Positions 1-19,341 of a DNA stretch of 40,968 bases are shown here, one piece after another. The first letter of the stretch is position 1, and the number at the start of each line of letters is the position of its first letter. Made by a program: the position numbers and the translations under genes. A model generated the notes under the pieces. The model made no database searches, was not told the origin of the DNA, and worked only from the letters and a program-made list of their open reading frames with translations. The stretch lies in IMG/VR virus record IMGVR_UViG_3300049482_000096, positions 1-40,968 of that record. The stretch is one strand, 5' to 3'. The stretch is from a virus.

Positions 1-29
1 GGAGAGGGAGGGGGGGGGGTCCCGGATCG

Positions 30-44
30 ATATTGTGTATACGT
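30..44 (+). repeat. Left copy of 15-bp terminal inverted motif
   Basis: The sequence atattgtgtatacgt is found here and, as an exact reverse complement, at 40916-40930. Both copies point inward and each lies next to a long G-run (10-19 on the left, 40935-40943 on the right). A 15-base inverted match within about 60 bases of both ends is not expected by chance. It could be a short terminal inverted repeat or a shared upstream element of the two divergent operons if the ends are joined. Confidence 0.6.
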
Positions 45-138
45 CGACTCTGCTTGGTCTAGTTTGTCTAGCCCGTCGATGCGCGTAACTCACAATAAGC
101 TAACAATATAGTCCTTGCATCGGTCCCGATAGTGTGCG

Positions 139-286
139 TGTCGGTACATTGCGTTAGGTCTTAAGTCCAGTTAGTACCGGTGTCGGTACGCCGCGAACCT
201 GTATCGGTCCCATTGTCAAGTGATGCGCGCTGCATTAGTGCGGGTATCGGTACGCGTCATCGGGGAGTTAGTACCTGAGGCGGTAC
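139..286. repeat. Cluster of ggtac-type repeats with internal dyads
   Basis: The best pair is 169-189 and 266-286: both begin agttagtacc and end cggtac, differing at 3 of 21 positions. Within each, gtacc and ggtac form an inverted repeat with a 6-base centre, so each unit could be a protein-binding dyad or small hairpin. Further cggtac copies lie at 141-147, 247-253 and within the pair itself. Clustered repeats near a genome end fit a packaging, replication or repressor site; which one is unknown. Confidence 0.5.
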
Positions 287-451
287 ACTATTGATGACCC
301 CCCTTGCAAGAAAGGGACCAACGAACAATCACCAACAACATCAGCACGTTAAACCCCCTCCCTACCCCTGCCATGGGTGATCGTAGAGAATGTGTTTAGG
401 CTAATGAGTGTTACCGGAATATGTGCGGATTTAGAGTTAACGCAGCGAGTC

Positions 452-482
452 GTGACACTTTTCCGCCCGCCGTTAATATAAT
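452..482 (+). promoter_or_regulatory. Candidate sigma70-type promoter for the structural block
   Basis: GTGACA at 452-457 and a perfect TATAAT at 477-482 are separated by 19 bases, slightly long for sigma70. Transcription would start near 489, about 30 bases before the first structural gene at 519, leaving room for its ribosome site (GAAAGGTG). The -35 match is imperfect. Confidence 0.4.
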
Positions 483-518
483 TAATTGTCTCCCCGTGTG
501 AGTGACGAAAGGTGTTGA

Positions 519-749
519 ATGAAAATTCGTGCTCGTGATTTTACGAATGAATTTGCGACGAAGTTGGATGAGAGTCCGGCGGGGACGACGTATGTAGGGA
601 AGACTCCCGTAGGGTCGGCAACTTCTACGCCCAGTTGGCAGATTATGAAAATGGTTGAAACTTCGACTACGCTGACGATAACATGGGCAGATGGCGATTC
701 TGCGTTCGATAATATTTGGGATGACAGGGCAAGTTTAACTTACAGCTAA
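519..749 (+). CDS. Small virion/tail-appendage protein, putative
   Basis: This 76-residue protein starts at ATG after a GAAAGGTG ribosome site. Its C-terminal half has the pattern TITWADGDSAFDNIWDDRAS, which I recognise as a recurrent motif in small proteins of phage structural operons. There is no signal peptide or membrane segment. It opens the rightward late block and is followed 12 bases later by another appendage-like protein. The exact role is unknown; a minor tail or fibre-associated protein is the best guess. Confidence 0.65.
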   Translation: MKIRARDFTNEFATKLDESPAGTTYVGKTPVGSATSTPSWQIMKMVETSTTLTITWADGDSAFDNIWDDRASLTYS

Positions 750-761
750 GGGGAAATAGAA

Positions 762-1175
762 ATGTCGGCTAAGGGAAATACGTTTGAAAATGATGTAGTG
801 AAATTAACTTTCAACGGGACGGCTTATTCGTGGAATGCGAATACAGATTTGTATGTTGCACTTCATACGGCTGACCCAGGAGAGGCCGGATCACAAACAA
901 CCTCTGAATGTGCATTTGGCGCATACGCTCGTGTGACGGTAGCTCGAACAGCAGGTGGCTTTACCGTAGCGGCTGACACGGCTTCAAACACAGCGGTCAT
1001 TGCATTCCCCGAATGCACATCTGGATCTGAAACAGTGACACACGTGTCGATTGGAACAGCAGCATCAGGTGCTGGGCAGATTATTTATAAAGGCGCTTTA
1101 ACCGCGTCTCGATCAGTATCGAGCGGGATTACATTGCAGTTTGCAATTGCGGCGCTTTCGGTAACTGAGGCATAA
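762..1175 (+). CDS. Tail fibre-like small structural protein
   Basis: This 137-residue, beta-rich, Thr/Ala/Ser-rich protein follows a strong AAGGGGAA site. The segment LYVALHTADPGEAGSQTTSE followed by YARVTV is characteristic of a family of small phage tail-fibre-associated proteins found next to virion genes in many tailed phages. It sits in an operon with the neighbouring appendage genes (12-base and 3-base gaps). The family assignment rests on recognised motif wording only; no partner can be named. Confidence 0.65.
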   Translation: MSAKGNTFENDVVKLTFNGTAYSWNANTDLYVALHTADPGEAGSQTTSECAFGAYARVTVARTAGGFTVAADTASNTAVIAFPECTSGSETVTHVSIGTAASGAGQIIYKGALTASRSVSSGITLQFAIAALSVTEA

Positions 1176-1178
1176 TCG

Positions 1179-1397
1179 ATGACGAATAAGGAAATGATCG
1201 CTATTTTGTCTGGCGGCATAAGTGGTAAAATTGCATTATTTAATGCAATGACTGAGCGCTTGGTCAACGGTGATTCATTAGCTGATAATGAAGTTTCAAT
1301 ATTTGAAACTCTCAAGAGAGATTTAATAATACCGGAGCCGACAATAGTACAGATGGAAGCTAACTTAACTGGGAATTCTAGCCAAAGGATTGAATGA
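1179..1397 (+). CDS. Hypothetical protein
   Basis: This 72-residue, mostly helical protein has no recognised domain. The start is 3 bases after the preceding stop, with TGAGG upstream. Its stop overlaps the next ATG (ATGA), which suggests translational coupling to the 289-residue appendage protein. It could be a chaperone or assembly factor for its neighbours, but that is only inference from position. Confidence 0.55.
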   Translation: MTNKEMIAILSGGISGKIALFNAMTERLVNGDSLADNEVSIFETLKRDLIIPEPTIVQMEANLTGNSSQRIE

Positions 1398-2263
1398 TGC
1401 CAGGCTTTAGAGGGTTATGGGAAATTAACGAAAGTTACGGCTTAGGTAAATCCTATTATTCTTTTTGGCGTAAAACTCCATCACAGACTACCGTTGCGGG
1501 GCAGTGGTTTGATACGAGTATGAGCCCTGGAAATCCAGCACCACAGTATTACGCAGCATCACCATTGGTCGCTCAGCAGATGAAGCGGTCTACTGATGGA
1601 GGCATACCTCATGGGACTAATGTTAGTTCTGCGTCTAAGTATTTAAGTCGATTTCTTATCATGAGCGCATCAGCCACGGGGCTTCCGATGCCTTATATTT
1701 TGTGTGATTATTTATTATATTATCCATTCGTCGATACGGGCTCGAATGACGAACAGCTTATGACGAACATACAGACGCTTCCTCGGTTTACTGACGGCGT
1801 TGGTGTGCAAATTATGGCTGTATCAGTCGCAGCGAGCGGAGGGCTTCAGCCGACATTCACAGTTAATTATACGAACTCTGCTGGTGTAGCTGGCCGAACA
1901 AGTCAACTTCATACTCTCAGCACAAACACATTTAATGGTGCAATCATGTCGAACAATCAACTAACTACTGTTTCGACAATGCCATTCATTGGTCTTCAGT
2001 CTGGCGACAGTGGAGTTCGATCAATTGAGTCAGTGACTTTTATCACCGGAACAGATGTTGGATTATTATCCTTCGTATTAGTGAAGCCACTAATGACAGG
2101 TGTAATACTCGAACAAACTGCGCCTAGTGAAAAGGTGTGTCAGCCAAATGATGGCGTGATGCCGCAAATTTACGATGATGCATTTTTAGGATTATTAACA
2201 CTACCAAACGGATCACTTTCCGGTGTAGCTTTTCATGGTGAAATAGAAACGATTTGGAATTAA
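1394..2263 (+). CDS. Structural appendage protein, paralogue 1
   Basis: This 289-residue protein has no signal peptide. It is clearly related to the next gene: both share, in order, W...TTxxVAG(Q/E)W near residues 26-38, a GNP motif, IPHG, an LPR/YPR-T-x-G-x-GVQ segment, an LQSxDxG segment, a KPLMT/KPLIT segment, GxMPQIYD/GGMPRIYD and a final FHG/YHG motif. It starts at the first of two ATGs, overlapping the upstream stop. The beta-rich composition and position in the late block suggest a virion surface or tail component. Function is not established. Confidence 0.7.
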   Translation: MMPGFRGLWEINESYGLGKSYYSFWRKTPSQTTVAGQWFDTSMSPGNPAPQYYAASPLVAQQMKRSTDGGIPHGTNVSSASKYLSRFLIMSASATGLPMPYILCDYLLYYPFVDTGSNDEQLMTNIQTLPRFTDGVGVQIMAVSVAASGGLQPTFTVNYTNSAGVAGRTSQLHTLSTNTFNGAIMSNNQLTTVSTMPFIGLQSGDSGVRSIESVTFITGTDVGLLSFVLVKPLMTGVILEQTAPSEKVCQPNDGVMPQIYDDAFLGLLTLPNGSLSGVAFHGEIETIWN

Positions 2264-2275
2264 AAGGGGATTAAA

Positions 2276-3436
2276 ATGGCAGGCTTTTCGAGTTACGACG
2301 ATTTCATCAACGAGGCAACGACTAACGGTAAAAAGTTTCGTCAAGACTGGAACAAAAACATGCTTCCGACTACTGCGGCAGTCGCAGGGGAATGGTCCTT
2401 CCTTGCTCGTGGCGCAGGAAATCCAGGCGCTGATGCTGTTTTTAACACTGGCACTAACTTAACATTTAACCCAGTAACAGATGCGACAACTTCAGGGGCA
2501 TCGATTCCACATGGTGGAGCGATAAGCCCTGATTATAAATTTTTAACGAATGCTTCTGCGTATTCAGCAGCAGCGACAACAATGCCAGCTGTTTTAATGC
2601 TCGTAGATTTAGTCGGATATTACAGAGTGACTTCAACTACAACTATCACGTCGCAAGCAATGACAAATACATTAGCTGCTTTTTCGACCTTCACGGCTGA
2701 TGCTCCGACAGATATTTGCACTCATACGAATATAAATTTATTTCCTTATACGCGCGTTCGTCTAACGACAACGACAACTCTTCCGGCGGGATTGGCTCTT
2801 GCTACTGATTATTACGTTATTAAAGTAACGGATTTAACTTGTAAGCTTGCGACGAGTTACGCGAACGCTGTCGCTGGAACTGCGATCAATATCACTGACG
2901 CTGGAACTGGAACTCATACAATTAACACTTTGTATCCGCGTTATACATCTGGCGCAGGAGTTCAAGCATTTATGTGGGCGAACAATGCGACCCCACTTGG
3001 AGCCGCTACTCCGAACTTAAGTTTTCCATCATACACAAATGCTGCTCAAACAACAGCGCGTGCGACTCCGACAACTTTACCGATTGGTAAAACCGCCGCA
3101 GCTAACGGTCTTGTTTTGTACTCAGGAACTGGGTCAGGAAAATACGGACCATTTATGCCGCTTCAATCTACTGACACTGGTATCGCACAAGTAGATAACA
3201 CGCAGATTTCTGTGTCGTATGTGTCGGGTGAATTCTCAATCGGAATGTGTAAGCCTCTGATCACTATGCCAATGACAACAATTGGTGTGGCGAGTGAAAG
3301 AGAATTTATGACTCAGGTCGCAGGCGGCATGCCAAGAATTTACGACGGCGCTGCGCTTTATTGGATGATCTATCATGGGGCAGCAACTCCGGTGAATAGT
3401 GCTTTCTATGGGCATTGCGACTTCGTATACGGGTGA
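2276..3436 (+). CDS. Structural appendage protein, paralogue 2 with inserted domain
   Basis: This 386-residue paralogue of the preceding protein follows an AAGGGGAT ribosome site. It is about 100 residues longer because of an insertion at roughly residues 122-222. The insertion contains the pattern RVRLTTTTTLPAGLALATDY, YVIKV and GTGTHTI, a beta module I recognise from many phage virion proteins. The remainder aligns motif by motif with paralogue 1. Duplication followed by module insertion is inferred. It is probably a tail or capsid surface component. Confidence 0.7.
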   Translation: MAGFSSYDDFINEATTNGKKFRQDWNKNMLPTTAAVAGEWSFLARGAGNPGADAVFNTGTNLTFNPVTDATTSGASIPHGGAISPDYKFLTNASAYSAAATTMPAVLMLVDLVGYYRVTSTTTITSQAMTNTLAAFSTFTADAPTDICTHTNINLFPYTRVRLTTTTTLPAGLALATDYYVIKVTDLTCKLATSYANAVAGTAINITDAGTGTHTINTLYPRYTSGAGVQAFMWANNATPLGAATPNLSFPSYTNAAQTTARATPTTLPIGKTAAANGLVLYSGTGSGKYGPFMPLQSTDTGIAQVDNTQISVSYVSGEFSIGMCKPLITMPMTTIGVASEREFMTQVAGGMPRIYDGAALYWMIYHGAATPVNSAFYGHCDFVYG

Positions 3437-3441
3437 TTTAA

Positions 3442-4125
3442 TTGGCATTAATAGGGAATCATTCAGTATTAAATAAATCTCATGCATTCTTTACGAATGG
3501 TACTTCGACGGCGGGCGCTTATGCTGCGAATACAAAATCAAATTGGACAGGTCCAAGTGTTTTGTCAGCGCGAAGAATTAACATGGCTGCGCGTTCGTCA
3601 ATTCCTGGTGGTTATAATTTAGGTGAAGCATATCTTGGTCCGATTAAATCCGGTGGCTTGTCAGGTAGAAATGTAATACTAGGTGAAGCGACATTAACGG
3701 CGACTGCAATTGCCGCGAAACTATCTAGCGCCTCATTAGCTGGCGCAGGCTCCGTGGTCAGTAATCTTTCGGTCATTGTTCAGGGGTCCGCGACATTAAC
3801 TGGTGCCGCGACAATGAGTGCATCCGCTGCTGCTGTAGCAAGCCTAGCTTCTTCTCTGTCAGGCGTAGCGACAATGAGTGCAGGGCTATCCTCTTTTGTT
3901 CCTATGGCTTCCTCTCTAACTGGCGCTGCTACGCTTTCCTCAGACGCAAAAGGTGTCGGAAATTTGGCCGCTGTTATTGATATCGGTGCGGGCACAGTCT
4001 TAAGTCCGGAGAGTTTAGCTACGGCGGTCTGGTCTGCGAATACAGTGACTAATAAAGAGACAGGGACATTCGGTGCGTTTGTGCAAAAGCTTTTAACCGT
4101 TGCTAAGTTTTTAGGCCTCAAATAG
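3442..4125 (+). CDS. Ala/Ser-rich repetitive tail-appendage protein
   Basis: The protein has 227 residues from a TTG start 5 bases after the upstream stop, with GGGTGAT nearby; no better ATG exists before the conserved N-terminus. Residues 75-190 are low complexity, with imperfect repeats of the type LTGAATMSASA / LSGVATMSAG / LTGAATLSSDA. The C-terminus (SLATAVWSAN ... GTFGAFVQKLL) matches a short motif often found at the end of repetitive phage tail proteins. It is likely a minor tail or fibre protein. The repeats may vary in number between relatives. Confidence 0.65.
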   Translation: MALIGNHSVLNKSHAFFTNGTSTAGAYAANTKSNWTGPSVLSARRINMAARSSIPGGYNLGEAYLGPIKSGGLSGRNVILGEATLTATAIAAKLSSASLAGAGSVVSNLSVIVQGSATLTGAATMSASAAAVASLASSLSGVATMSAGLSSFVPMASSLTGAATLSSDAKGVGNLAAVIDIGAGTVLSPESLATAVWSANTVTNKETGTFGAFVQKLLTVAKFLGLK

Positions 4126-4128
4126 TAA

Positions 4129-4157
4129 TTGCCAGTCCTTTCGTCTTAACTTAGTGT
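4129..4157 (+). promoter_or_regulatory. Candidate promoter directly before TerS
   Basis: TTGCCA (4129-4134) and TAGTGT (4152-4157) are separated by exactly 17 bases. The predicted start of transcription falls at about 4163-4165, on the terminase ATG itself, and no Shine-Dalgarno sequence lies before that ATG. The -10 overlaps the recurrent AGTGTAAC motif (4153-4160). The boxes are only partial matches to consensus. Confidence 0.3.
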
Positions 4158-4163
4158 AACTTT

Positions 4164-4766
4164 ATGATTGAAGACAATAGCACAGTAGAAGAGAATGAAG
4201 AGGGAACTCCCTCGGACGATGAAGAGGTAGTAATTCCTCACGGAGATATGCCGCTCAGTCCTCGTCACAGGAGGCTCGCTGAGCTCATTGCGACAGGCTG
4301 GCCCAACTCTAAGATAAAAACCGAACTGAAGTACTCGGATTCGCGTCTGTCGATCTTGCGCGGTAATGCGCTCATTCGTGAGGCTGTCCGTCGTATTCAA
4401 GATCGTATATATGAAGATACGATTGCTTCTCGGATGAAGAAAATGACCGATCCCGCCCTCAGTGAAATCGAAAAATGTCTCATGGACAAGACGAATCGCT
4501 ATAAAGAGCAGCTTAAGGTTGATACGGCGAAATGGATTATCGAGAAAATCGACGGTAAAGCTATCCAGAAGCATGATGTCTCCGGTGGAATCCTCGTCGG
4601 ACTCCTCGATCGACTCGATACGCTTAAGTCTACGGGTCAAAATGTTGACTCTCTGCCCGAAATGATCGACGTAACTCCCCTTCTTGGTGAGCCACCCCTC
4701 GACGCACCTGCCCAAGAGGACTCCGAAGAGGAGAAAATGCTGCGACAATGGGCCAATGAGTTTTAA
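4164..4766 (+). CDS. terS: Terminase small subunit
   Basis: This 200-residue protein should recognise the packaging site and load the large subunit on phage DNA. Its N-terminal 25 residues are very acidic. Residues 32-75 (SPRHRRLAELIATGWPNSKI and following) form a helix-turn-helix of the small-terminase type. A long helical stretch to about residue 130 suits oligomerisation, and the acidic tail would contact TerL. It lies 107 bases before terL. There is no ribosome site before the ATG, so leaderless translation or coupling must be considered. Confidence 0.8.
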   Translation: MIEDNSTVEENEEGTPSDDEEVVIPHGDMPLSPRHRRLAELIATGWPNSKIKTELKYSDSRLSILRGNALIREAVRRIQDRIYEDTIASRMKKMTDPALSEIEKCLMDKTNRYKEQLKVDTAKWIIEKIDGKAIQKHDVSGGILVGLLDRLDTLKSTGQNVDSLPEMIDVTPLLGEPPLDAPAQEDSEEEKMLRQWANEF

Positions 4767-4873
4767 TTTGTGACATAACGCTCCGCGTATAGTGAATTTT
4801 CTACACACCCCCAGTTTCCTCAGTTAACCTGACCCCGTATTCAGCTCAGAAGTGTAACACAATAAGGTCAAGG

Positions 4874-6481
4874 ATGACTTTGGAACTTTCGCCCGACCCT
4901 CTCAAGAGGTATATTCAATTTCGCGATGATCCGTGGTTGTATTTGAAGCACTGCGTGTGGACTCGTGATCAAGTTGACTCAGTTAATCCGATTAAAAAGT
5001 ATCCTGCACATTGGCCCTATCTTCGTTTCATTGTTTACATGTGGACGAAGCACAAGAAGCTCGCCCTGCCGAAGTCGAGACGAATGACGGTCTCTTGGAC
5101 AATTCTCGGACTCATCAGTCATGATATTTTGTTTCATAAGGGCCGAGACTGGGCCGTAGTTTCGAAAAAAGAAGAAGATTCCCGCGAATTGGTCGAACGG
5201 ATCGAATTTATCATTAATCACATCCCGCCCGATATGATTTCGCCTGATCTCCTTCCTAAAATGAAGCGTGGAGAGATGCAATCTTCTCCTCCTGCGATAG
5301 AGTTCGAGGAAATTTATTCGAAAGTTCAGGGGTTTCCTCAAGGGGGAAATCAGCTCCGGCAGCGTGGTTTCTCGGGTATTTTCGAGGACGAATGCTCCTT
5401 CTGGGAAGAGGCGCAGCAGGCTTATGCTTCAGCGAAGCCGACAATTGATGGAGGAGGTCGCATGATTATGGTTTCCTCCCGCGCAGTCGAGGATAAAGGT
5501 TTCTTTAAGAAAATTGTTTTTGATCAACTTGATGCACCTGATACGCACTTTCCTGAAATTGCACCTGCCCCAGTGAAGTCACCCATGGATGGAGTTGATG
5601 TATGGGAAAATCCGCGCAATGGATTTACTGTAATTGAGCTTCATTACAAGGCGCACCCCGAGCGGAAGTCCGAAGAGTATCGACAGATGCTTAAAGATAC
5701 GCTGCCGAGGAAAGAATACATGATGGAATATGAGAAGAGTTGGGAGGCCTACTCGGGTCGCCCTGTCTTTGAGGATTTCAATGAAGCTCTTCATGTGACG
5801 AAGATTCCACCGAAAGTTCACCCGAATCTTCCCCTCCTCGTCGGATGGGATTCATCCGGACTCACTCCTGCTGCAATTATTTGTCAAATGCAGGATGATC
5901 GACTCATCGTGATTCGTGAAATTCTCGGTACTGAGCTTGGTGTATCCGTCGGAGCTCGTCGTTTCGTGCCCCACGTTGCCGCTCAGATCAGGCTCCATTA
6001 TCCGCAATGCGGAGACATCGAAAAGCAGACTATTAGTTTCTTTGATCCCGCTGGATTTAAGAAAAACGAGATCACTGAGGAGACTTATCTTGCGGAATTG
6101 ATGCGCGGCGGATTCAAGCAGATACGTCCAGGCGCAATGACGATTAAGAAAAGAGTCGATGGCGTTACGCAATGGCTCCTCGGTACGTCGAAGGGCGGCG
6201 GACGTCTTCAGATTTACGATAGAGACTGCCCGACATTCATCGCGGGTATGCGCGGGGGTTATCGTTACTCCGATAGCTCTTATCAGATCGAGCCTGACAA
6301 GGCACAACCTCTGAAGGACTCACACTCGCACGTTCATGATGCATTTCAATATTTGACAACGGGTCTCGCGGGACATCTTCGTGAGAATTATAACATTACA
6401 ATACCAACACCGAGTTATTCGTTTCAGAAGGAACAAGCTCGCACAACAGTAAGGAAAAATTATGGCAGGGATGTCAGATAA
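4874..6481 (+). CDS. terL: Terminase large subunit (packaging ATPase/nuclease)
   Basis: This 535-residue protein powers DNA packaging and cuts concatemers. The Walker A-like motif is LPKSRRMTVS (residues 65-74), a variant without the usual GKT, as in several phage terminases. Walker B is GIFEDE (168-173). The RNase H-like nuclease acids are visible as D326 (VGWDSSG), D391 (SFFDPAG) and D489 (HVHDAFQYL). The start follows AAGGTCAAGG. The end overlaps the portal gene by 20 bases. The length fits the family. Confidence 0.93.
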   Translation: MTLELSPDPLKRYIQFRDDPWLYLKHCVWTRDQVDSVNPIKKYPAHWPYLRFIVYMWTKHKKLALPKSRRMTVSWTILGLISHDILFHKGRDWAVVSKKEEDSRELVERIEFIINHIPPDMISPDLLPKMKRGEMQSSPPAIEFEEIYSKVQGFPQGGNQLRQRGFSGIFEDECSFWEEAQQAYASAKPTIDGGGRMIMVSSRAVEDKGFFKKIVFDQLDAPDTHFPEIAPAPVKSPMDGVDVWENPRNGFTVIELHYKAHPERKSEEYRQMLKDTLPRKEYMMEYEKSWEAYSGRPVFEDFNEALHVTKIPPKVHPNLPLLVGWDSSGLTPAAIICQMQDDRLIVIREILGTELGVSVGARRFVPHVAAQIRLHYPQCGDIEKQTISFFDPAGFKKNEITEETYLAELMRGGFKQIRPGAMTIKKRVDGVTQWLLGTSKGGGRLQIYDRDCPTFIAGMRGGYRYSDSSYQIEPDKAQPLKDSHSHVHDAFQYLTTGLAGHLRENYNITIPTPSYSFQKEQARTTVRKNYGRDVR

Positions 6482-8339
6482 AAAAGTAATCGATTGGATT
6501 TTGAGTTGCCGTGAGGAAGCGGATGAGGCTAAGACAGACCGAATGAGTCGAAATAAAGACAATTTCGATATGTTTCACCTGAAGCATGATTTCAGTCACA
6601 AGGAGCAGGGGCAATCGACTGAGATTCTCTCAAAGCAGAGTATGGCCGTTGAGACTATTAAGAGTTTCTTCCAGCAGGCTCTCGCTGATATTGGTGATTG
6701 GTGGAAGGCGGAATGTCGTTACGCCGTCGATGAACGTAGTCTTCCCGTACGTGCGGAAGAGATTACGAAACTGACGAATTATCTCCTCGAGAAGGCGCAG
6801 TATTTCAGTCACGTCGGAAATTCCATTCAATCCGCCCTCCTTGGCAGTCTCGCCATTACGAAAGTATATGGATGCGCTAAAGCTAAGCCTAAGTATGTGT
6901 CGAAGAAGAAGGGTCGCGGTAAATCCATGAAACGATGGGTTGATATGATTGAGGATAAGACTTGGGAACTTAAATTCGAGATCGTTCGAGCGGAAAATTA
7001 CTTTCCCGATCCCTCCGGTCGCGGGCTCTACGAGATCGAAGAAATGTTCCCTGATTATATTGACGTTCTTCGCATGTCCGAAGGTGATGAAGCAATTTAC
7101 GATCGTGCCGCAGTTCTGGCCCTCTCTAAGGGTACTTCAGACTCAGAGGATGATTTCGATAAGTCGCGTGAGACTGGACAGAATACTTCCACCTCCGGTC
7201 ATAGACCGAAAGTTAAGCTAACTGAATTCTGGGGAGATATTCTTAATCCGGATACGGGCGAAATGGAGTATGAGAACTGCGTTTGTACTATTGCGAACGA
7301 TACAGTGATGATCCGGAAGCCGACACCGAATCCTCTTTGGCATCAGAGACGTCCTTATGTGGCCTCTCCCTTGTATGAGGTTCCAAATTCAGTATGGCAT
7401 CGAGCTCCAATGGATGCACCGACACAGCATAATCGCGCCCTAATTGAATTGTATAATTTAATGGTCGATGCAGCGATGAAACAGGTTCACGCGGTGAGTC
7501 AACTTCGTAAGGACGCTCTTGATAACTCAGCACAGGTGAGTGAAGGGATTAAACCCGGGATGACTCTCATGGTGAACTCTATGCTTCCCGTCGGAGGTAA
7601 GGTGATGGAGCCCTTGACTGCCGTAACTGTCCCGACTGAAGCCTTTAATATACTTAATTTGATGAATCAGGAATTTAATGCTTCAGCTCTGACGAATGAT
7701 CTCAGACAGGGTGTTATGCCCTTCCGCGCAGTGAAGGCGACCGAAGTCGTCGAAGCAAGTCAAACGATTACGTCGGTCTTCCAGGGTCTCGCGAAGAATT
7801 ACGAAGCGAAACAGTCCATGCGCGAGCTTGAACTCGCTTGGATGACCGTCGCACAGAACTGGGATAAGATTTCGAAAGAGGAGTTTGTCGCATTGTTCGG
7901 CGGAGAGCGTGGCGAGGAGCTTCATCAGATGAGTCCTCAGGATATATTCGTCAATACAGTTAATGGAGTTAAGTTTCGTGTCTTCGGCGTCAGTCTCACT
8001 CTCAGTAAGGCACAAGATTTCCGCAAGCTCACGACTCTTCTTCAGACAGTGAGTTCCTCTCCGATGCTGATGGAGAAATATCTCGAGAAGTACGATCTAG
8101 CGAAGACTCTCGGTGAGATTATGACTGCACTTAATATAGATAAGTCGAAACTTGAGATTCCTGTCGCTATGCAGCAGACTATGCAAGAGCCGCAAGAGGG
8201 TGCCCCTGAGCAAGGACCTGACATGATGAGTCAGACTCCTCAAGCTGGAGCCGGCTCAATGGCGGACCTTTTTGGCGGAGCCGAAATGCCTCAAAGTGAA
8301 TTTCCTGGCTCTCCCGCTACGGCTGGAGGTGTAGCGTGA
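6462..8339 (+). CDS. Portal protein
   Basis: This 625-residue protein should form the dodecameric ring at the capsid vertex through which DNA enters and leaves. The assignment comes from size, position directly after terL, and composition: N-terminal helices, a central region with repeated tyrosine/tryptophan-rich beta segments and a long C-terminal helical part (about 390-530). The tail is rich in Gln, Met and Pro, as often seen in podovirus portals. The ATG follows AAGGAAAAAT. The GTGA at its end couples it to the next gene. Confidence 0.87.
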   Translation: MAGMSDKKVIDWILSCREEADEAKTDRMSRNKDNFDMFHLKHDFSHKEQGQSTEILSKQSMAVETIKSFFQQALADIGDWWKAECRYAVDERSLPVRAEEITKLTNYLLEKAQYFSHVGNSIQSALLGSLAITKVYGCAKAKPKYVSKKKGRGKSMKRWVDMIEDKTWELKFEIVRAENYFPDPSGRGLYEIEEMFPDYIDVLRMSEGDEAIYDRAAVLALSKGTSDSEDDFDKSRETGQNTSTSGHRPKVKLTEFWGDILNPDTGEMEYENCVCTIANDTVMIRKPTPNPLWHQRRPYVASPLYEVPNSVWHRAPMDAPTQHNRALIELYNLMVDAAMKQVHAVSQLRKDALDNSAQVSEGIKPGMTLMVNSMLPVGGKVMEPLTAVTVPTEAFNILNLMNQEFNASALTNDLRQGVMPFRAVKATEVVEASQTITSVFQGLAKNYEAKQSMRELELAWMTVAQNWDKISKEEFVALFGGERGEELHQMSPQDIFVNTVNGVKFRVFGVSLTLSKAQDFRKLTTLLQTVSSSPMLMEKYLEKYDLAKTLGEIMTALNIDKSKLEIPVAMQQTMQEPQEGAPEQGPDMMSQTPQAGAGSMADLFGGAEMPQSEFPGSPATAGGVA

Positions 8340-8596
8340 GTCTCCGCGTAGCTCCTGAGTCTGAGCTTCAGCATGCTCTTCTCGTCGAAGCCCGTCAAAT
8401 CAGTGTCGCCCTCCCCGCGCTAGATCCCATGCTCTCCCGCAGGAAAGAAGCTGCTTTTAAGAGGCTCATGGGGAATTACAGGGACGGAAAACACAACGAT
8501 CAGCAGGCAATTATTGCAGAATTATTCGTCATCGAGACGATTGTTAATGAATTAAACTCGAAACTTCAGAATTTGAAGTTCGAAAAGAAGGGATAA
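8336..8596 (+). CDS. Hypothetical protein between portal and scaffold
   Basis: This 86-residue, almost wholly helical protein starts at GTG, overlapping the portal stop (GTGA), with a strong GGAGGTG upstream. It contains LDPMLSRRKEAAFKRLMGNY and ends in a lysine-rich tail. Small helical proteins in this position are common in podoviruses with this gene order, and may act in head assembly, but no function is established. Confidence 0.65.
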   Translation: MSLRVAPESELQHALLVEARQISVALPALDPMLSRRKEAAFKRLMGNYRDGKHNDQQAIIAELFVIETIVNELNSKLQNLKFEKKG

Positions 8597-8599
8597 ATC

Positions 8600-9382
8600 A
8601 TGAGCGAACAACAAGAGAAAAAACGTGGAATGTTAGAGGATCTAGCGCAAGCGCGAGCGGAAATTCATGGAGCAGTGGTCTCCGAGGAAGCTCTTCCAGC
8701 GGGATCAGCTCCCCTCGAGGAGCTCGCAGTCGAGGCAGCTCCTGCCGTGGTCACCGAAGAAATTGTGGCGGAAAAAGTGGCGGAAAAGAAAAAGATTAAG
8801 ATCGCCGGACGAGAGTTCGACTCTCAAGATGAAGCTTATCAATATGCAGAGGAGCTTGATCGCGAGCGCATGATCGCTGAAGCGCGTAATGAAGGTCTCC
8901 GCGAAGCTATCCATGCTGTCGGGAAGAAGGATGAGCCCGTCGTCGAAGAGAATAATGAATTTGATGAGTTTTACACTAATCCTCAAGGTTATATGGCCAA
9001 AGTTAAGGAGCAAGCGAAGTCTGAGATACGTCAGGAACTTGACGCTCATTCAGCGGAGGAAGCAGCGTGGCGTGAATTCTGTGACATCAATCCGGACCTG
9101 GCCGACTCGCGACCTGAGGTTATTCGGATAATGAAAGAAAACTGGGACGTCCTAGGGAAGATGCGTGACCGAGAAAAGGCTATTAAGTATCTCGCGGCGA
9201 AAACCCGTAATTATTTCGATAAGATAGTTGAAATGAGGATGCCGCGGAAAGAGCTTCCGAATTCCGGCGGACAAGTCGTTAGTCCAAGTGGTTCTCTCAC
9301 TAGAAGTGTAACACAACAGAAAAAACCTGACGCACCATTGACATTAGCACAGCAAATGAAGAGTCTGAGGAAAGGCATGTAA
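8600..9382 (+). CDS. Scaffolding protein
   Basis: This 260-residue, strongly acidic, Ala/Glu/Lys-rich helical protein is predicted to be coiled-coil over much of its length and ends in a basic, proline-containing C-terminus (residues 220-260). It lies between portal and major capsid genes, the classical place for a scaffold. Its role would be to direct procapsid assembly through the basic C-terminus and then leave. Assignment is by composition and order, not by a conserved motif. Confidence 0.8.
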   Translation: MSEQQEKKRGMLEDLAQARAEIHGAVVSEEALPAGSAPLEELAVEAAPAVVTEEIVAEKVAEKKKIKIAGREFDSQDEAYQYAEELDRERMIAEARNEGLREAIHAVGKKDEPVVEENNEFDEFYTNPQGYMAKVKEQAKSEIRQELDAHSAEEAAWREFCDINPDLADSRPEVIRIMKENWDVLGKMRDREKAIKYLAAKTRNYFDKIVEMRMPRKELPNSGGQVVSPSGSLTRSVTQQKKPDAPLTLAQQMKSLRKGM

Positions 9383-9386
9383 AAAT

Positions 9387-9424
9387 TACCTTCAAGAATG
9401 AGGGTATCACAACCAAGGAAGGTA
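9387..9424 (+). promoter_or_regulatory. Possible hairpin sequestering the capsid ribosome site
   Basis: TACCTTC (9387-9393) is the exact reverse complement of GAAGGTA (9418-9424), and the latter is part of the AAGGAAGG ribosome site of the major capsid gene. A competing shorter pairing uses TACC and GGTA at 9412-9415. The arrangement could tune capsid translation relative to scaffold; the stem is short, so this is tentative. Confidence 0.3.
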
Positions 9425-9428
9425 TTTA

Positions 9429-10382
9429 ATGGCAACTCACAGTTGGGTAAATGACGGAGCATCGGGAGTATATAAAAATCACGATCTAAGTTCTAAAATC
9501 AGAATGGCCTCAATAAAAGAAGCTAAATTTATGCAGTTCACGAAGCCAGAAGAAGGTTATGGTAAGAAGAAGGGTGAATCAGTAACGATCACTCGTGTTT
9601 CTAACGTAACTGTACCAACAAGCGACGTATTGAACGAATTAAGCTCAATCCCAGAAGATACGTTAAGCTTAAGCACTCAAGCCATCACAGTTTCAGAACG
9701 TGGTCGCTCGATTCCTTACAGCTCATTGTCTCTTGACCTAACTCACTTCGACCTTGAAAATGCGATTCAAAAGAAATTGAAAGATCAATTGAAGTTGAAT
9801 ATGGACATCGCCGCTGCTGCTGCCTTTAAAGATGGTCAAATCTTGGCCATCCCAACAGGCATCAGTGCAACTACTTTCGAAACAGATGGAGCCGCTTCAA
9901 ACACAGCAGCTTCGAATTTAAATATGTATCACGTTGAATCAATCCGCGACTATATGTTCGCAGACTTGAACATCGCTCCTTATATGGGCGACGATTACGT
10001 GTGTATCTTGAGTACACAAGCTAAACGTGGCCTTGTCCGCGATCCAGACTGGGTTGACTGGAAGAAATACACTGATCCTTCTGCTAAATTTAACGGCGAA
10101 ATCGGTCGTATTGAAAACATTCGTTTCGTTGAGACGAATCACTCTTCTGCATTAGCTGAAGACTTAGGTACTGGCGACGTAATGGGTGAGGCAGTATTTT
10201 TCGGTGAAGATCCAGTAGTAATGGCAGTAGTTCAAGATCCTGAGCTTCGCGCGAAGGAATCTGAAGATTACGGTCGTTCTAAGGGTGTTGCTTGGTACGG
10301 TATTTACAGCTTTGGTCAAATATGGACTGACTCTGCAAACGCCGGCGAAGCTCGCGTTGTATACATGACAAGTCAAACATAA
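9429..10382 (+). CDS. Major capsid protein, N4-gp56 family-like
   Basis: This 317-residue protein forms the capsid shell. The segment around residues 215-238, GEIGRIENIRFVETNHSSA, is the hallmark I recognise in N4-gp56-type HK97-fold capsid proteins. Other fitting features are the N-terminal QFTKPEEGYGKKKGESVTIT region and a terminal tyrosine-rich strand. The gene is preceded by AAGGAAGG and by a possible hairpin. Its codon choice (more AAC, CGT, GGT, GTA) differs from its neighbours and suits very high expression. Confidence 0.88.
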   Translation: MATHSWVNDGASGVYKNHDLSSKIRMASIKEAKFMQFTKPEEGYGKKKGESVTITRVSNVTVPTSDVLNELSSIPEDTLSLSTQAITVSERGRSIPYSSLSLDLTHFDLENAIQKKLKDQLKLNMDIAAAAAFKDGQILAIPTGISATTFETDGAASNTAASNLNMYHVESIRDYMFADLNIAPYMGDDYVCILSTQAKRGLVRDPDWVDWKKYTDPSAKFNGEIGRIENIRFVETNHSSALAEDLGTGDVMGEAVFFGEDPVVMAVVQDPELRAKESEDYGRSKGVAWYGIYSFGQIWTDSANAGEARVVYMTSQT

Positions 10383-10407
10383 TTTAACTTAATAAGGGGA
10401 TTTCAAA

Positions 10408-10857
10408 ATGTCTTACACTAAAAAAACAGGTTTGGGCTACTTAGTAAGAGCCTCAAACGCTTTTGATACAGCAGAAGTTTTATCCGCAGCGGCAGCAGTA
10501 TATGGTGAATACTATGTAACTAAGCCCTGCTCAATTGGCTCTCTTCGATTCATCGTTACTACGACTGTTGTTGGAACTACAACAGCTCCAGTGATTGAAG
10601 TGAATCGTAGACCAACTCCAGGCTCCGCTTCCGGCGAAGTTCTGATCAGTCAATTTACTATTCCAACAAGTACAGCGGCAGGAACTGTTTGCGTAGAGAG
10701 ATTCGCTCCCGTTCAATTGAACGTCGGTGATTCTCTTGCATTTGAACACGTAACTCAAGCTGTTGGTTCCGCGGCAGGCGCAGGTTTCTTTGACGTAGAA
10801 TTAGAAATCGACGAAGAAGCTGATGGAAACCAATCTGATCTATTAATCTGTTCTTAA
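10408..10857 (+). CDS. Putative head decoration/accessory protein
   Basis: This 149-residue, beta-rich protein follows a strong AAGGGGAT site directly after the capsid gene. Strand-forming stretches such as SIGSLRFIVTTTVVGTTTAP suggest a jelly-roll-like or similar fold, and the C-terminus is acidic. Position suggests a capsid decoration or head-stabilising protein made in large amount; no family motif is recognised. Confidence 0.65.
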   Translation: MSYTKKTGLGYLVRASNAFDTAEVLSAAAAVYGEYYVTKPCSIGSLRFIVTTTVVGTTTAPVIEVNRRPTPGSASGEVLISQFTIPTSTAAGTVCVERFAPVQLNVGDSLAFEHVTQAVGSAAGAGFFDVELEIDEEADGNQSDLLICS

Positions 10858-10871
10858 TCCAGGAGGATTAA

Positions 10872-11222
10872 ATGGCTGATTTAGCATCGGGTGATGTAAC
10901 ATACACCCTTTTAAATAGAAGAAACATGGGTAGCTCGAAGAAAACAAATCGAGTTCGTCTCGCTTTCGGTGACGGCGCTCTAACTGTTCCTGCGAATGGT
11001 ATTCCCATCTCAAAGGGAAAATTAGGCTGCCCCACTAACATCGAATCCATGTGGGTCGTTGACCAGGGCGTTTCCGGTTATGTGTTCCAGTATGATCAAT
11101 CCGCTGAGAAGTTGGTTGTCATGATGGGCGATAACAATAACGCATCTGATGGGCCTCTCGTTGAGGCCAGTACTGTTGCCATTGCGGCACAGACATTAGA
11201 AGTTGAAGTAATAGGTTATTAG
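10872..11222 (+). CDS. Small structural protein
   Basis: This 116-residue protein follows a near-perfect AGGAGG site. It is predicted to be mostly beta strands and has no signal peptide. It belongs to the group of small genes between capsid and connector proteins; head decoration or head completion are possible roles. The stop codon forms the first bases of a 7-bp hairpin (11220-11237). Confidence 0.6.
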   Translation: MADLASGDVTYTLLNRRNMGSSKKTNRVRLAFGDGALTVPANGIPISKGKLGCPTNIESMWVVDQGVSGYVFQYDQSAEKLVVMMGDNNNASDGPLVEASTVAIAAQTLEVEVIGY

Positions 11223-11237
11223 TCTCGTAAGGGACTA
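11220..11237 (+). other. Hairpin with GTAA tetraloop at a stop codon
   Basis: TAGTCTC and GGGACTA pair over 7 bp (one T-G wobble) around a GTAA loop, a GNRA-type tetraloop in RNA. The stop codon TAG of the upstream gene is the first three bases of the stem. No T-run follows, so it is not an ordinary intrinsic terminator; RNA processing or stabilisation is possible. Confidence 0.4.
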
Positions 11238-11255
11238 GTGCGAAAGGAAAAACCA

Positions 11256-11663
11256 ATGAAAAAACGAGAAGAAGAAGACGCAAAGATTAGACGAAGAGGG
11301 TTCGATTTAACGGTAACGCATCGAGACCCTTATACAGGTGTTATTACACACACAGATCCTTACATTATGAGATCTCTCAAGGCAGAGGGCGGCAGTGGTC
11401 GTACTCGAGTCTGGGAGCGTCCTGCGGGATCGGGAAATCTCTTTGACCGTGACAATGAGCCAGTTGGCCGTTGGGTTAAAGATGGGGAAAACCCTAATGG
11501 AGTCTTTAAACGCGGTGCGCCACATGTAGCTTATGAAGCTCCATTGACGAATGACCAAAAAGTTGCTCGTGAGAATATGGCACTTAAGGCCGAACTTGCC
11601 GCTATGAAAGCAGAGCAGGAAAAAAAGGCCGAACCAGTAAAGAATAAAGCGAAGGAGAGCTAG
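11256..11663 (+). CDS. Hypothetical head protein with C-terminal coiled coil
   Basis: This protein has 135 residues from the ATG at 11256, chosen because GAAAGGAAAAACC lies just before it; an upstream in-frame GTG at 11238 has no such site. The N-terminus is very basic (KKREEEDAKIRRRGF). The last 40 residues are Ala/Lys/Glu-rich and helical. It may contact DNA or other head proteins. Function unknown. Confidence 0.6.
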   Translation: MKKREEEDAKIRRRGFDLTVTHRDPYTGVITHTDPYIMRSLKAEGGSGRTRVWERPAGSGNLFDRDNEPVGRWVKDGENPNGVFKRGAPHVAYEAPLTNDQKVARENMALKAELAAMKAEQEKKAEPVKNKAKES

Positions 11664-11672
11664 ATCTCTCCT
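11653..11672 (+). other. Hairpin at a stop codon
   Basis: AGGAGAG and CTCTCCT pair perfectly over 7 bp around a 6-base loop that contains the stop codon TAG of the upstream gene (11661-11663 region). No T-run follows. It resembles the hairpin at 11220-11237 in placing structure exactly on a stop codon, just before the next ribosome site AGGGGG. Confidence 0.4.
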
Positions 11673-11685
11673 CTTAGGGGGAAAC

Positions 11686-13005
11686 TTGGCTCAATTTCGA
11701 ACGACATCCGACATAGTTGACACAGTTTTAACTAATGGGGGAGAAGTTACTAATGGTAATTCCCCTTACGAAGCTCAAGTTCTTTCTTGGCTTAATCGCG
11801 TTCATTATACTCTTATTTCCGGCGGCACCATTGCACTCGGAAAGGATACCACGGTTGAGATTGATGAAGTCTGGCCATGGGCTCGTTCCGCGCGTCCACT
11901 CATCCTCGAACTCCAGCCAAAGATCGACGAAGGATCAGTTACGCTTACTCTCGGAAGTGAGGCGGGTGTATTTTCTTCCGCGCCATCAGTCTCCGTCGCA
12001 GGATGGTATCTCCAGGTAATTGGACGTGATGAAATTCTTCGTATTGCCTCACATACTGCGGCCTCAGTGAATTTTGAACTCGACGGCGCCTATCCCGATC
12101 CTTCCGGCTCCGGACTGAATTATAAAGTTTTTAAATTGGACTATGAGCTACTGCCCGACATGATCGTGATTGATTCATTCAGTAATAAGATTGACTTTAA
12201 GAAGACCGCAGGAGGCTCTCTGCTGACTGCGACACTGACGGCAGGAACTTATACCCCTTCAGCGCTTGCGACTCATGTAGCCTCTGTTATGACGGCTGCT
12301 GCCTCAGGGCCGACGATCACAGGGTCTTATTCCGCGACATCACGTAAATTTACTTTCGTCTCTGATGGAGCCGCCGCAACGGTCCTTCAGCTCGTCTTCG
12401 CGACAGGAACAAATCAACTCATCTCCGCACATAAAGTTCTCGGATATGATGATGAAGATCTCACTGGAGCTCTGACCTATACTAGTACTTATTCTCTCGG
12501 CAATCTGAGCCGCATAATTGAGCCCTTCAAGATGCATAAGGGCGCATCTCTCGATGGTAGTATTTATGGTATTGATTCGGAGTCCTTCCAGCGTGATTAT
12601 CCTTTCTCACGTACCATGGAAGGATTTCCGGATCGCTTTAGCGTCATTCGTGAAGTCGATGGTGTTTTCACTGTCCGCTTTAATAGATTCCCGAAAGAGA
12701 AGACTCGTGTCGAGGTGGAGAATACTCCGATTCCGCGCGACCTGAAGGATTCAGCCGGATCGATTCCACTCGTTCCGCGAAAGCACATGGATGTGCTAGA
12801 AGATGCAGCGACGTTTTATCTTATGCTCGTGAAATCGGACGATCGTATGTCTGTTTATATGCAGCTCACTCAGGGGAAACTTAAAGCGATGATCGCTCAG
12901 CATAGAGGGTCGCAAGTTCGCTCAGGTAAACTTTTTGGTCAAATCGTTTCGAGACCGGAAATGCAAGCGAAGGGACGTAGAAAATTAATCTACGGGTACG
13001 AGTGA
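11686..13005 (+). CDS. Head-tail adaptor/tail tubular-like protein
   Basis: This 439-residue protein starts at TTG with AGGGGGAAAC upstream. Position between head and nozzle genes and the N-terminus (helical start TTSDIVDTVLTNGG, then a beta-rich core) suit a podovirus adaptor or tail tube protein. Residues about 165-275 form a likely inserted beta module (NKIDFKKTAGGSLLTATLTA, GTYTPSALATHV, LGYDDEDLTGA), a pattern seen in several phage tail proteins. The C-terminal region (HMDVLEDAATFYLML) is helical. Confidence 0.7.
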   Translation: MAQFRTTSDIVDTVLTNGGEVTNGNSPYEAQVLSWLNRVHYTLISGGTIALGKDTTVEIDEVWPWARSARPLILELQPKIDEGSVTLTLGSEAGVFSSAPSVSVAGWYLQVIGRDEILRIASHTAASVNFELDGAYPDPSGSGLNYKVFKLDYELLPDMIVIDSFSNKIDFKKTAGGSLLTATLTAGTYTPSALATHVASVMTAAASGPTITGSYSATSRKFTFVSDGAAATVLQLVFATGTNQLISAHKVLGYDDEDLTGALTYTSTYSLGNLSRIIEPFKMHKGASLDGSIYGIDSESFQRDYPFSRTMEGFPDRFSVIREVDGVFTVRFNRFPKEKTRVEVENTPIPRDLKDSAGSIPLVPRKHMDVLEDAATFYLMLVKSDDRMSVYMQLTQGKLKAMIAQHRGSQVRSGKLFGQIVSRPEMQAKGRRKLIYGYE

Positions 13006-13006
13006 T

Positions 13007-14617
13007 ATGGCATTCACGGGGCAACAGGCACACATTCCTCTCGCTGATTTAGGTCTCCTGACGGATATGGCTCCAGGGCAGATCCCTCGTGGCGCTCTCA
13101 TCCGTGCGAATAATATTTCGTACGAGACAGGGTTGATTACGAAATGTACCGGCTCTAGGAAGTATAATTCGACAACTTTCGGCTCCACTGTCGTGGCGCT
13201 TCATGATTGGTGGCCTGATACGGTGACTCAACGATTTATCGTAGCTTGCGCCAATGGGAATCTTTATCGTGACATAGGGGACGGTAATTTCGGTCCTGAT
13301 GCTGGCTCAACTAATGAGCCCATGACCTCGACAGCTCTTATGTCCCTTGATCCTCGCGCTATGTTCATTGACGGCGGGCAGGAGACTTCAGGGAGAACGA
13401 AGAAACTTTTTTTATTCTCGGGGACTAATCAGGTTAAGGTTCTTGACGCAGATGGACTTACTTTCGCTACAATTCGAGATCCCGCCGCAGACTGGGTTAC
13501 TCCGAATTACCCTTCGATTGGATTGATTCACCGAAACCGACTATGGGCCTTTATGAATCAGCGAGCTTATGCTTCTGACTCAGGGGATCATGAAGATTTT
13601 AATACGAACTTCCTCACTCAGGCTGTTTTTCCTGGTGAGGGAGGCAACATTAGCGGTGCTTTCGTCTTTAAGGGACGTCTTTTCGCCTTCAAAGAGGGCG
13701 GATTCGTATATTATCTTGATGATGCAGATACGGACTCAGATAACTGGGTGTGGCGTAAGTTAGCCTCTAATTTCGGCTTAAGCTCGCCACACGGCATTAT
13801 TGAAGTCATGAATGACATGATTGCGGTGAATGATTCGGGATCTCCGACTAGTTATTCTGCGGTGCAGTCTTTTGGTGACATAGAGTCAGCCGATCTCCTT
13901 CGGTCGCTTCGAATTGAAGATTATTTCCGTGGTATTACGGGATTTTCCGGTCTCGACGTCCTCCATGCTTGTTATTATGAAGCCAAGAAAATGGCCTTTT
14001 TTACTTATAGGACGGGCGCTCGCTCGACGAATGACACCCTCCTGATGATTGATTTTAACTCGCAGAATCCTCGTTCTGCCTTCTGGCCCTCTCATGCGGC
14101 TCAGTGCCTCACTCTTCGTCGTGATCGTTATAAGATTAAAAGACCCGTTTACGGGGGATCCGATGGATTTGTCTATTTGGCCGACCAGGAAGATCGCCTC
14201 ATTGGGTTTACGGGAGCAGGCGGAGGCTCTGCCATCTCTGCTGAATTCATGATCGCACATACAGATATGCGCTTTCTGGATGAGCGTTTGGCGCAGAAGA
14301 ATAAACTTTTCGACTTCTTGGATGTGGAATTTAAGCCGCAAGGCTCGTGGAATTTAGAAGTGGACGTCTATATTGACGGCCAATTTAGTGAGACGATTAA
14401 TTTTTTAATGGACGTCAGGGATGACGGTCTTGACTCATTTACCCTCGGTGGCGACACTTTGGGGAGGGATGAGTCACAGACAATCCGTAAGCCGCTCCAT
14501 GGATCGGGGCGGCGACTTTCTTTCCTGTGTCGAAACACGGGATCGAATCAGAATTTCGCAATTGCAGGTTTTACAGTAGGTTTTCGCGTCAGTGCGGAAC
14601 AAGCAACAAGGATTTAA
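13007..14617 (+). CDS. Tail nozzle/stabilisation-like protein
   Basis: This 536-residue protein has repeated beta-blade-like units (FIVACANGNLYRDI, LFLFSGTNQVKVLD, LWAFMNQRAYASD, GRLFAFKEGGFVYYL), consistent with a propeller core as found in podovirus nozzle proteins. It follows the adaptor gene by one base and precedes the fibre. It is expected to close the short tail channel. Identification rests on fold-like repeats and gene order. Confidence 0.7.
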   Translation: MAFTGQQAHIPLADLGLLTDMAPGQIPRGALIRANNISYETGLITKCTGSRKYNSTTFGSTVVALHDWWPDTVTQRFIVACANGNLYRDIGDGNFGPDAGSTNEPMTSTALMSLDPRAMFIDGGQETSGRTKKLFLFSGTNQVKVLDADGLTFATIRDPAADWVTPNYPSIGLIHRNRLWAFMNQRAYASDSGDHEDFNTNFLTQAVFPGEGGNISGAFVFKGRLFAFKEGGFVYYLDDADTDSDNWVWRKLASNFGLSSPHGIIEVMNDMIAVNDSGSPTSYSAVQSFGDIESADLLRSLRIEDYFRGITGFSGLDVLHACYYEAKKMAFFTYRTGARSTNDTLLMIDFNSQNPRSAFWPSHAAQCLTLRRDRYKIKRPVYGGSDGFVYLADQEDRLIGFTGAGGGSAISAEFMIAHTDMRFLDERLAQKNKLFDFLDVEFKPQGSWNLEVDVYIDGQFSETINFLMDVRDDGLDSFTLGGDTLGRDESQTIRKPLHGSGRRLSFLCRNTGSNQNFAIAGFTVGFRVSAEQATRI

Positions 14618-14626
14618 GGGGAACTT

Positions 14627-16732: not shown

Positions 16733-17058
16733 TGAGTCTCTACGCCGACTACGTAAAAGAACGCTTCGGATGGCACACCCTGGAGGTTGAGTCTGGTTTC
16801 ATTACCTATGACATCAAACCTCCGGAAGCCTCAATCGAGGAGTTTTACGTCGCACCGGAAATGAGAGGAACTTCTCTCGCCAAACGTCTAGCGGATCAAG
16901 CCATAAAGCAGGCTAAAGAAGCAGGATGTAATAGAATATGGGCTAAGGTCACTCCAGGAGTGAATGGGGCGGAACACGCAATGAGAACTAACCTGCACTA
17001 TGGTTTTAAATTGATGGGAAATCGTGGCAATGATACTTTAATGGTATTGGATATTTAA
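16732..17058 (+). CDS. GNAT-family N-acetyltransferase
   Basis: This small 108-residue acetyltransferase starts at ATG 16732, which shares one base with the fibre stop; an upstream ATG at 16720 lies inside the fibre gene. The acetyl-CoA site is recognisable in EEFYVAPEMRGTSLAKRLAD, matching the GNAT motif A pattern (R-x-x-S/G-x-A then helix), followed by a strand and the YGFKLMG motif. The substrate is unknown. Its place between fibre and ejection genes suggests it acts on a virion protein or on a host target. Confidence 0.75.
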   Translation: MSLYADYVKERFGWHTLEVESGFITYDIKPPEASIEEFYVAPEMRGTSLAKRLADQAIKQAKEAGCNRIWAKVTPGVNGAEHAMRTNLHYGFKLMGNRGNDTLMVLDI

Positions 17059-17068
17059 GGAGATAATT

Positions 17069-17908
17069 ATGGGTAAAAGTGGCGGGTTACTAGGTGGCGT
17101 CGGAGAGCTTATCTCAGGGGATGGCGGAGCTAAAGCAGCCGGTCGAGCTGCAATGGCACAGCAGCGGGAAGCGAAACGCGGATACAATCAGTATGCGTCA
17201 AGCATTAATCCCGCTACAGTGGCGGGTTTAGCCTCCTTAGATAGAGACATACAAAATCAAGAAAAGAACCTGTCTCGACAAGAGCAGTTGATTTCACAGA
17301 TTGATCCGACCGTCATTGAGGCCAGTCAGCAGGCCCTTAAGCTCCTCAGAGGCGAACAAGCAAGCTCACTGGGCCCAATGAAGGCTCAGCGTGAGCAGCA
17401 GCGGCAGAAGCTTCAGAACTCCCTCAGAGAGCAGCTCGGCGCAGGAGCTGAAACCTCTACGGCAGGCATTCAAGCACTCACTAGATTCGATTCCGAAACT
17501 AATCAACTATATGCAGGGGCGCAGCAGCAGGCACTCTCTAATCTCGGCGGAGTTGCCGGACAATTTAATGCTATTCGTCCCGACATGCTCAGGGAGCTTT
17601 CCGGTCTTTCCGGCTTTGGTCAGGCGAAGACAGGTCTTGAGTTTCAGCGAGCACAGGGTCTTTTAGGGGCCAGTCAAGGGCTTCAACAGACTGCGGGAGC
17701 GAAGTATGCCGCTGACGTTGCTCGTGGGCAGCAGGCTTCCGCCTTTGGTGGCCAGTTAATGTCACTCGGCGGAATGGCTTTAGGTGGCGCTCTTGGCGGT
17801 GCCGGAGCCGCAGGTGCAGCAGGAGGAGCTGCCGCAGGTGCCGGTGCTTCATTAGGTGGAATGGGCGGATATACTAGCGGGATGTTCGGCTCAATAGGCG
17901 GACCGTAA
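17069..17908 (+). CDS. Internal virion/ejection-type protein with Gly/Ala-rich end
   Basis: This 279-residue protein follows AAGGAGATAATT. The middle is Gln/Ala/Leu-rich and helical (residues 30-215), and the C-terminus is a Gly/Ala-rich, membrane-compatible segment (from about 228). Its start also has a GKSGGLLGGVGELISGDGG segment. This pattern, helical core with glycine-rich hydrophobic ends, is common in podovirus internal proteins that enter the host envelope during DNA ejection. The TAATG overlap couples it to the next gene. Confidence 0.65.
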   Translation: MGKSGGLLGGVGELISGDGGAKAAGRAAMAQQREAKRGYNQYASSINPATVAGLASLDRDIQNQEKNLSRQEQLISQIDPTVIEASQQALKLLRGEQASSLGPMKAQREQQRQKLQNSLREQLGAGAETSTAGIQALTRFDSETNQLYAGAQQQALSNLGGVAGQFNAIRPDMLRELSGLSGFGQAKTGLEFQRAQGLLGASQGLQQTAGAKYAADVARGQQASAFGGQLMSLGGMALGGALGGAGAAGAAGGAAAGAGASLGGMGGYTSGMFGSIGGP

Positions 17909-18186: not shown

Positions 18187-18190
18187 TTTT

Positions 18191-19339: not shown

Positions 19340-19341
19340 TT

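Follow-up and report, generated by a model that had tools for sequence, protein, structure and literature searches.

The window, meaning the whole stretch of 40,968 bases that was analysed, is an IMG/VR virus record classed as linear, and it encodes a tailed phage. The large terminase and the head-tail and head proteins are read rightward, and a family A polymerase, a primase-like protein, a Sak4-like protein and an exonuclease are read leftward. Positions 1-518 form a non-coding leader (Table 1), in which we counted 12 pairs of repeated 8-mers against a mean of 2.0 in shuffled sequence (0 of 500 shuffles). In the relative G031, repeated TTGGCGTTTG words occupy the same place in the leader as the degenerate repeats of the window. 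Named phages gave no DNA match and only distant protein matches, positions 1-20000 were without similarity to any phage record, and the early gene at 37500-37925, used as a query, returned no relatives. The leftward genes also include a QueC/PP-loop family member, which may belong to a pathway for modifying DNA or RNA bases, and an alpha/beta hydrolase gene adjoined by a rightward gene for a long protein (Table 1).

Each end of the window carries one copy of ATATTGTGTATACGT, and the two copies are exact reverse complements. The sequence-only reading of this DNA had pointed out the pair, and the match proved to be far beyond chance. The longest inverted word common to both 130-bp ends was 15 bases, against a maximum of 13 in 5,000 dinucleotide shuffles, and only three exact inverted 15-mers were present in the 41-kb window, the end pair included, one of the three being a self-palindrome. 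No third copy was found elsewhere in the window with up to two mismatches allowed. TTGGTC extends both arms in register at the same 9-nt spacing (ATATTGTGTATACGT-N9-TTGGTC), and each arm measures about 30 nt with TTGGTC included. The dyad in the window is non-random. The ends also hold runs of ten and nine G, lengths that had been given correctly, and these are the only runs of seven or more G or C in the window. Both lie on the plus strand, that is, in direct orientation, and are therefore not part of the inverted repeat.

Table 1. Positions of features in the window and dimensions of the junction dyads in relatives
Genome	Feature	Position	Strand	Details
Window	Right-hand core remnant, probably truncated at contig end	1-29		G10 at 10-19
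Window	Right dyad arm, ATATTGTGTATACGT read outward (rightward)	30-44	+	Exact match
Window	Right arm continuation, TTGGTC	54-59	+	9-nt spacing as in left arm
Window	Degenerate repeats of about 21 nt with TCGGTAC, four copies, in rightward leader by right arm	116-286	+	
Window	First rightward gene of structural block, 76 aa	519-749	+	Homologue in G003
Window	Small-terminase-position protein, directly upstream of large terminase	4164-4766	+	Alignment
Window	Large terminase (TerL)	4874-6481		PHROG 2
Window	QueC/PP-loop family match	30501-31106	-	Pfam, E 1.7e-7
Window	Alpha/beta hydrolase	32838-33629	-	Pfam, E 1.4e-16
Window	Long protein matching collagen-like and tail-fibre families	33695-34969	+	
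Window	First leftward gene, 90 aa, predicted winged-helix/LOTUS-like	40565-40837	-	HMM, AlphaFold, Foldseek
Window	Left arm continuation, TTGGTC	40901-40906	-	In register
Window	Left dyad arm, ATATTGTGTATACGT read outward (leftward)	40916-40930	-	Exact reverse complement
Window	Left-hand core remnant	40931-40968		G9 at 40936-40944; ends CCCTGTATTATAA
G004/G006/L028	Dyad			Arms about 43 nt, core 158-165, A10
G039/L083	Dyad			Arms 50 nt, core 155, A9 and C5
G037/L085	Dyad			Arms 40 nt, core 182, A23
G038/L090	Dyad			Arms 33 nt, core 149, T19 and C9
L102	Dyad			Arms 25 nt, core 210, G6 and A13
G031/L159	Dyad			Arms 31 nt, core 164, A9 flanked by G5 on each side
G036/L130	Dyad			Arms 103 nt, core 177, C6
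G010	Dyad			Arms 28 nt, core 173, G5, A13 and C7
G013	Dyad			Arms 43 nt, core at least 99; contig ends inside core at A18

The window ends are probably two sides of one region

Relatives were gathered with the major head protein and the terminase as queries. In four of them (G004, G006, L028 and G010), a single unbroken contig runs from homologues of the early genes at the right end of the window, through the junction, to the structural side, and in the first three it extends to the terminase. The near-full-length relatives (40.9-44.4 kb) are cut at scattered positions: once oriented, they have the terminase anywhere from 0.2 to 37.7 kb from the left end. G030 and G032 overlap directly at their ends, by 36 and 95 bp, despite their linear record class. 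Scattered cuts, read-through of the junction and direct end overlaps together indicate that the phage map is circular and that the window contig broke inside one region; the joining of the window's own ends follows from synteny with these relatives. An exact 22-mer of the left arm was absent from all viral contigs, and no contig of the same phage bridging the gap was found. Gene order and the read-through relatives place a non-coding region between the divergent early and late blocks. The proposal that the joined ends would set the motif pair symmetrically in a divergent control region was thus borne out, by the four read-through relatives and by a junction dyad in at least ten genomes.

The pair had also been suggested to be a terminal inverted repeat. 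A linear genome with protein-primed or hairpin ends would indeed show an inverted motif close to each end of its contig, but a terminal repeat requires physical ends with nothing beyond them, whereas the relatives run on through the junction, their cuts are scattered, and two of them have direct overlaps. In the window itself, a further 29 and 38 bases separate the motif copies from the contig ends, and both a family A polymerase and a terminase are encoded, in keeping with the earlier remark that protein-primed replication is improbable. We therefore rejected a true terminal inverted repeat, which has almost no probability left. The companion suggestion of a regulator dyad or a replication site was the right class of idea.

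The layout of the junction is shared by at least ten genomes

In at least ten genomes, a core with A- and/or G-runs lies between two inverted arms, each about 25-100 nt long (Table 1). Relatives lacking the motif had been named as evidence that would count against the sequence-only reading. As a sequence, ATATTGTGTATACGT is indeed missing from 25 relatives with up to two mismatches allowed; as an architecture, it is retained. The comparison thus indicates that the layout, and not the sequence, is conserved across the phage group, which is what is new here, and a layout conserved in this way is invisible to sequence search.

The junction dyads of eight relatives scored 26-60, and none of 6,954 background windows from the same genomes reached 30; the G010 pair, with a score of 26, is not significant taken alone. 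A blind scan of 20,208 windows recovered the L102 and L159 dyads independently, and the places scoring 35 or more were the dyads of Table 1, the exceptions being a repeat within coding sequence in L045 and a single place in L183. The dyad of G030 is a shorter one (core 90); the pair in G032 is weak (score 26, core 91) and adjoins a gene weakly similar to the family of the first leftward gene described below. No significant dyad was found in L068, in which 8 of 300 shuffles reached the score of the genome, and none at threshold in G003, G014, G028, G029, G034 and G035, several of whose contigs are cut or incomplete there.

In G038 and G036 the dyad lies within the leftward block and not exactly at the divergence. 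G038 has two dyads (oriented positions 4163-4377 and 8091-8297) with spacings of 149 and 150; the first is inside the leftward block and has its homopolymers reversed (T19 then C9), and the second, weaker one is at the true divergence. The reversed tracts raised the idea of an invertible segment, which was dropped, as no genome was seen in the second orientation. An unexplained inverted pair of 32 nt with a core of 147 nt lies within the polymerase gene of G027 (oriented positions 27410-27620), and its score of 44 exceeds that of most junction dyads.

The cores of the eight intact relatives measured 149-210 bases (mean 171, standard deviation 19) and usually carry an A-tract of 9-23, against 67 bases in the window if its ends are simply joined. 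The right end of the window stops at CCCTGTATTATAA, where the G004 core reads CTGTATTAAAAAAAAAA, and this resemblance suggests a contig break at the A-tract. Some 80-140 bases, an A-tract probably among them, are probably missing from the window core, and the earlier estimate of a spacing of about 67 bases is probably too short.

Another reading is a site of packaging initiation (pac or cos), to which the small terminase encoded in the rightward block would bind. In G004 and genomes like it, the dyad precedes the terminase genes by 200-500 bp, and the window and G013 contigs both end inside the core. The window dyad, however, is 4.1 kb from the terminase, and the distance varies from 0.2 to 4.1 kb among genomes. 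Contigs of at least nine relatives read through the core, which speaks against a fixed cos cut. A cos site is not supported, since it requires fixed virion ends and the near-full-length contigs, whose ends are contig ends and not mapped virion ends, stop at scattered positions. Both contigs broken in the core have long homopolymers at the break (A18 in G013, the G-runs in the window), and sequencing error rates go up at long homopolymers on every platform (PMC4053816). Contigs of this group thus appear to break at homopolymers in their own control region, and their ends should not be taken for genome termini. We regard initiation of packaging at the dyad as improbable.

The two arms of a genome change together

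Ten left arms and ten right arms were compared in all combinations. The pairs from one genome gave 26-62 (mean 38.8) and the foreign pairs at most 24 (mean 13.3); the arm limits of the relatives had been set by the match of their own pair, so that the diagonal is partly selected, whereas the window pair had been picked out in advance and the background counts do not depend on this choice. The same arms compared in direct orientation, as a control, gave 10-20. The alignments indicate that the arms evolve in concert, with symmetry kept and letters completely different between genomes, as expected if one protein must recognise both arms. Elsewhere in the genomes, arm words occur mostly at chance level, although G031, G036 and G010 have slightly more of them close to the dyad, and in most genomes the site is therefore local. 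Short tandem words are present within the arms of G004, G031, L102 and G010.

Another reading takes the arms for two copies of an RNA element of the nut or put kind, with which each divergent transcript would begin; read outward, both transcripts would carry the same sequence. Such elements need a stable, conserved arm structure, but the arms of most genomes were no more structured than shuffles (folding z about -2 to +1.6), and this very unlikely explanation was set aside.

The first leftward gene encodes a predicted winged-helix protein

In a leave-one-out HMM search of 3,758 ORFs, the 90-aa product of the first leftward gene was the top hit for the window genome (E 7e-6). Homologues at the same place are present in L068, G010 and G004, so that the family covers four genomes with the window (E 7e-6 to 9e-4). 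Homology of the adjacent gene was weak in G039 and G037 (E 0.07 and 0.17); the leave-one-out HMM recovered no homologue in G013, and no member of the family was found next to the G031, G036 and L102 dyads. Pfam and PHROGs returned nothing for the gene or its homologues, including any recognised initiator or Rep domain.

AlphaFold predicted a confident winged-helix-like fold for the 90-aa protein (pLDDT 86). For the G010 homologue the model, of moderate to lower confidence, shows two winged helices in tandem, an arrangement that plasmid initiators are known to have. The best Foldseek matches of the 90-aa model were the LOTUS (OST-HTH) domains of TDRD5, TDRD7 and Oskar, with non-significant E values of 0.07-0.2 and TM scores of about 0.4-0.5, and generic winged helices matched as well. 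LOTUS is described as a G-rich and G-quadruplex RNA-binding domain (Ding et al. 2020, as cited in PMC8191793). The 90-aa product, a predicted winged helix, is the prime candidate for the protein that binds the arms.

A putative replication origin between the early and late blocks

The reading that we favour, with a probability of roughly one half, is that the window ends are two sides of one non-coding control region between the divergent early and late blocks, that a protein binds it, and that it is most likely a replication origin, possibly combined with an early-promoter switch. Mirror-image arms, one beside each transcription unit, would flank a core of probably 150-200 bp with homopolymer tracts. 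In the inferred mechanism, a phage protein, for which the winged-helix/LOTUS-like first leftward product is the candidate, attaches to both arms, forms a bridge across the core or wraps it, and opens it; replication would begin at this place, and divergent transcription of the early and late blocks would be set in the same step. The origin part of this reading draws on the position between divergent blocks, the local arms, the core with A- and G-tracts, and the leader repeats in the window and G031. The GC skew turns at the junction, but it locally tracks the gene strand and was not accepted as independent support for an origin.

A purely transcriptional role has a lower but substantial probability. 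An early repressor or activator would then regulate itself by binding the arms as operators, and would control both the leftward early promoter and the rightward late leader; the arms would have no part in replication. In many genomes the left arm precedes the first leftward start codon by 20-80 bp, the adjacent gene is predicted to encode a winged helix, the arms are symmetric to the two divergent units, and a weak TTGACT-N17-TATATA lies between the left arm and the gene in the window (40863-40891). However, a consensus promoter scan gave only weak sites in 1-700 and none at the left arm, and the promoter and terminator scan gave nothing convincing. The rightward arm is 200-475 bp from the first rightward gene, and neither a homopolymer core nor a near-constant spacing is necessary for an operator pair. 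A divergent operator would explain the symmetry equally well, and one region may serve as both origin and operator.

For the origin reading, the closest tested precedent by layout is the origin of the lactococcal Ceduovirus (c2) phages, where the non-coding region between the divergent early and late blocks was shown to be an origin (PMC7150918). In that genus, three origin types that show no similarity to one another are found at this one intergenic position, and each supports plasmid replication (PMC7150918). Both groups thus have an intergenic position between divergent early and late blocks and a sequence that differs completely between related phages, with function kept in c2. The c2 origins, however, are described with promoters PE1 and PE2 and work without phage proteins, whereas the genomes of the window group share a wide dyad with a homopolymer core inside it; the likeness to c2 is one of layout. 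The c2 genomes are about half the size of those of the window group. Beyond the Ceduovirus paper (PMC7150918), a search of the literature on phage origins with iterons or divergent dyads found nothing.

Two other systems offer partial likenesses. Iteron origins of theta plasmids and phages, with a winged-helix Rep, likewise combine repeats beside a readily melting tract with a winged-helix gene close by, but the arms of the window group are inverted and far apart, form no direct array, and are accompanied by no detected Rep domain. In the lambda immunity region, the same sequence is inverted at two divergent units with a regulator gene at the site; here, in contrast, the regulator candidate is the first leftward gene and does not lie between the operators, and the core is non-coding with homopolymers. 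Concerted inverted arms at a near-constant distance, a homopolymer core, and recognition by a small LOTUS-like phage protein, perhaps through the G-tract as well, might together represent a type of origin or early/late switch unlike known origins, a doubtful idea that we put forward tentatively.

If the region is an origin, the dyad shows where replication begins in a widespread group of uncultivated phages with genomes of about 41-44 kb. It would also offer a natural series of co-changing protein-site pairs, each genome having its own arms and its own variant of the neighbouring gene.

Other observations on the relatives

The large terminase ORF of L037 (15-2561, plus strand; 848 aa) has an insertion of about 270 aa between two blocks that match the window terminase, and this is a candidate intein or other insertion. 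Fold-back chimeras (inverted duplicates) occur at the contig ends of L025, L032, L038 and L044, and G028 has a fold-back at 41281-41770 that includes a perfect 85-bp pair; these fold-backs at contig ends are probably artefacts of amplification or assembly. The only relative in a genome collection was L194 (PSRA01000230.1), whose head protein has 50% identity and which lies in a Bacteroidetes metagenome-assembled genome; it is possibly a binned phage contig, and gives a weak hint of a Bacteroidetes host.
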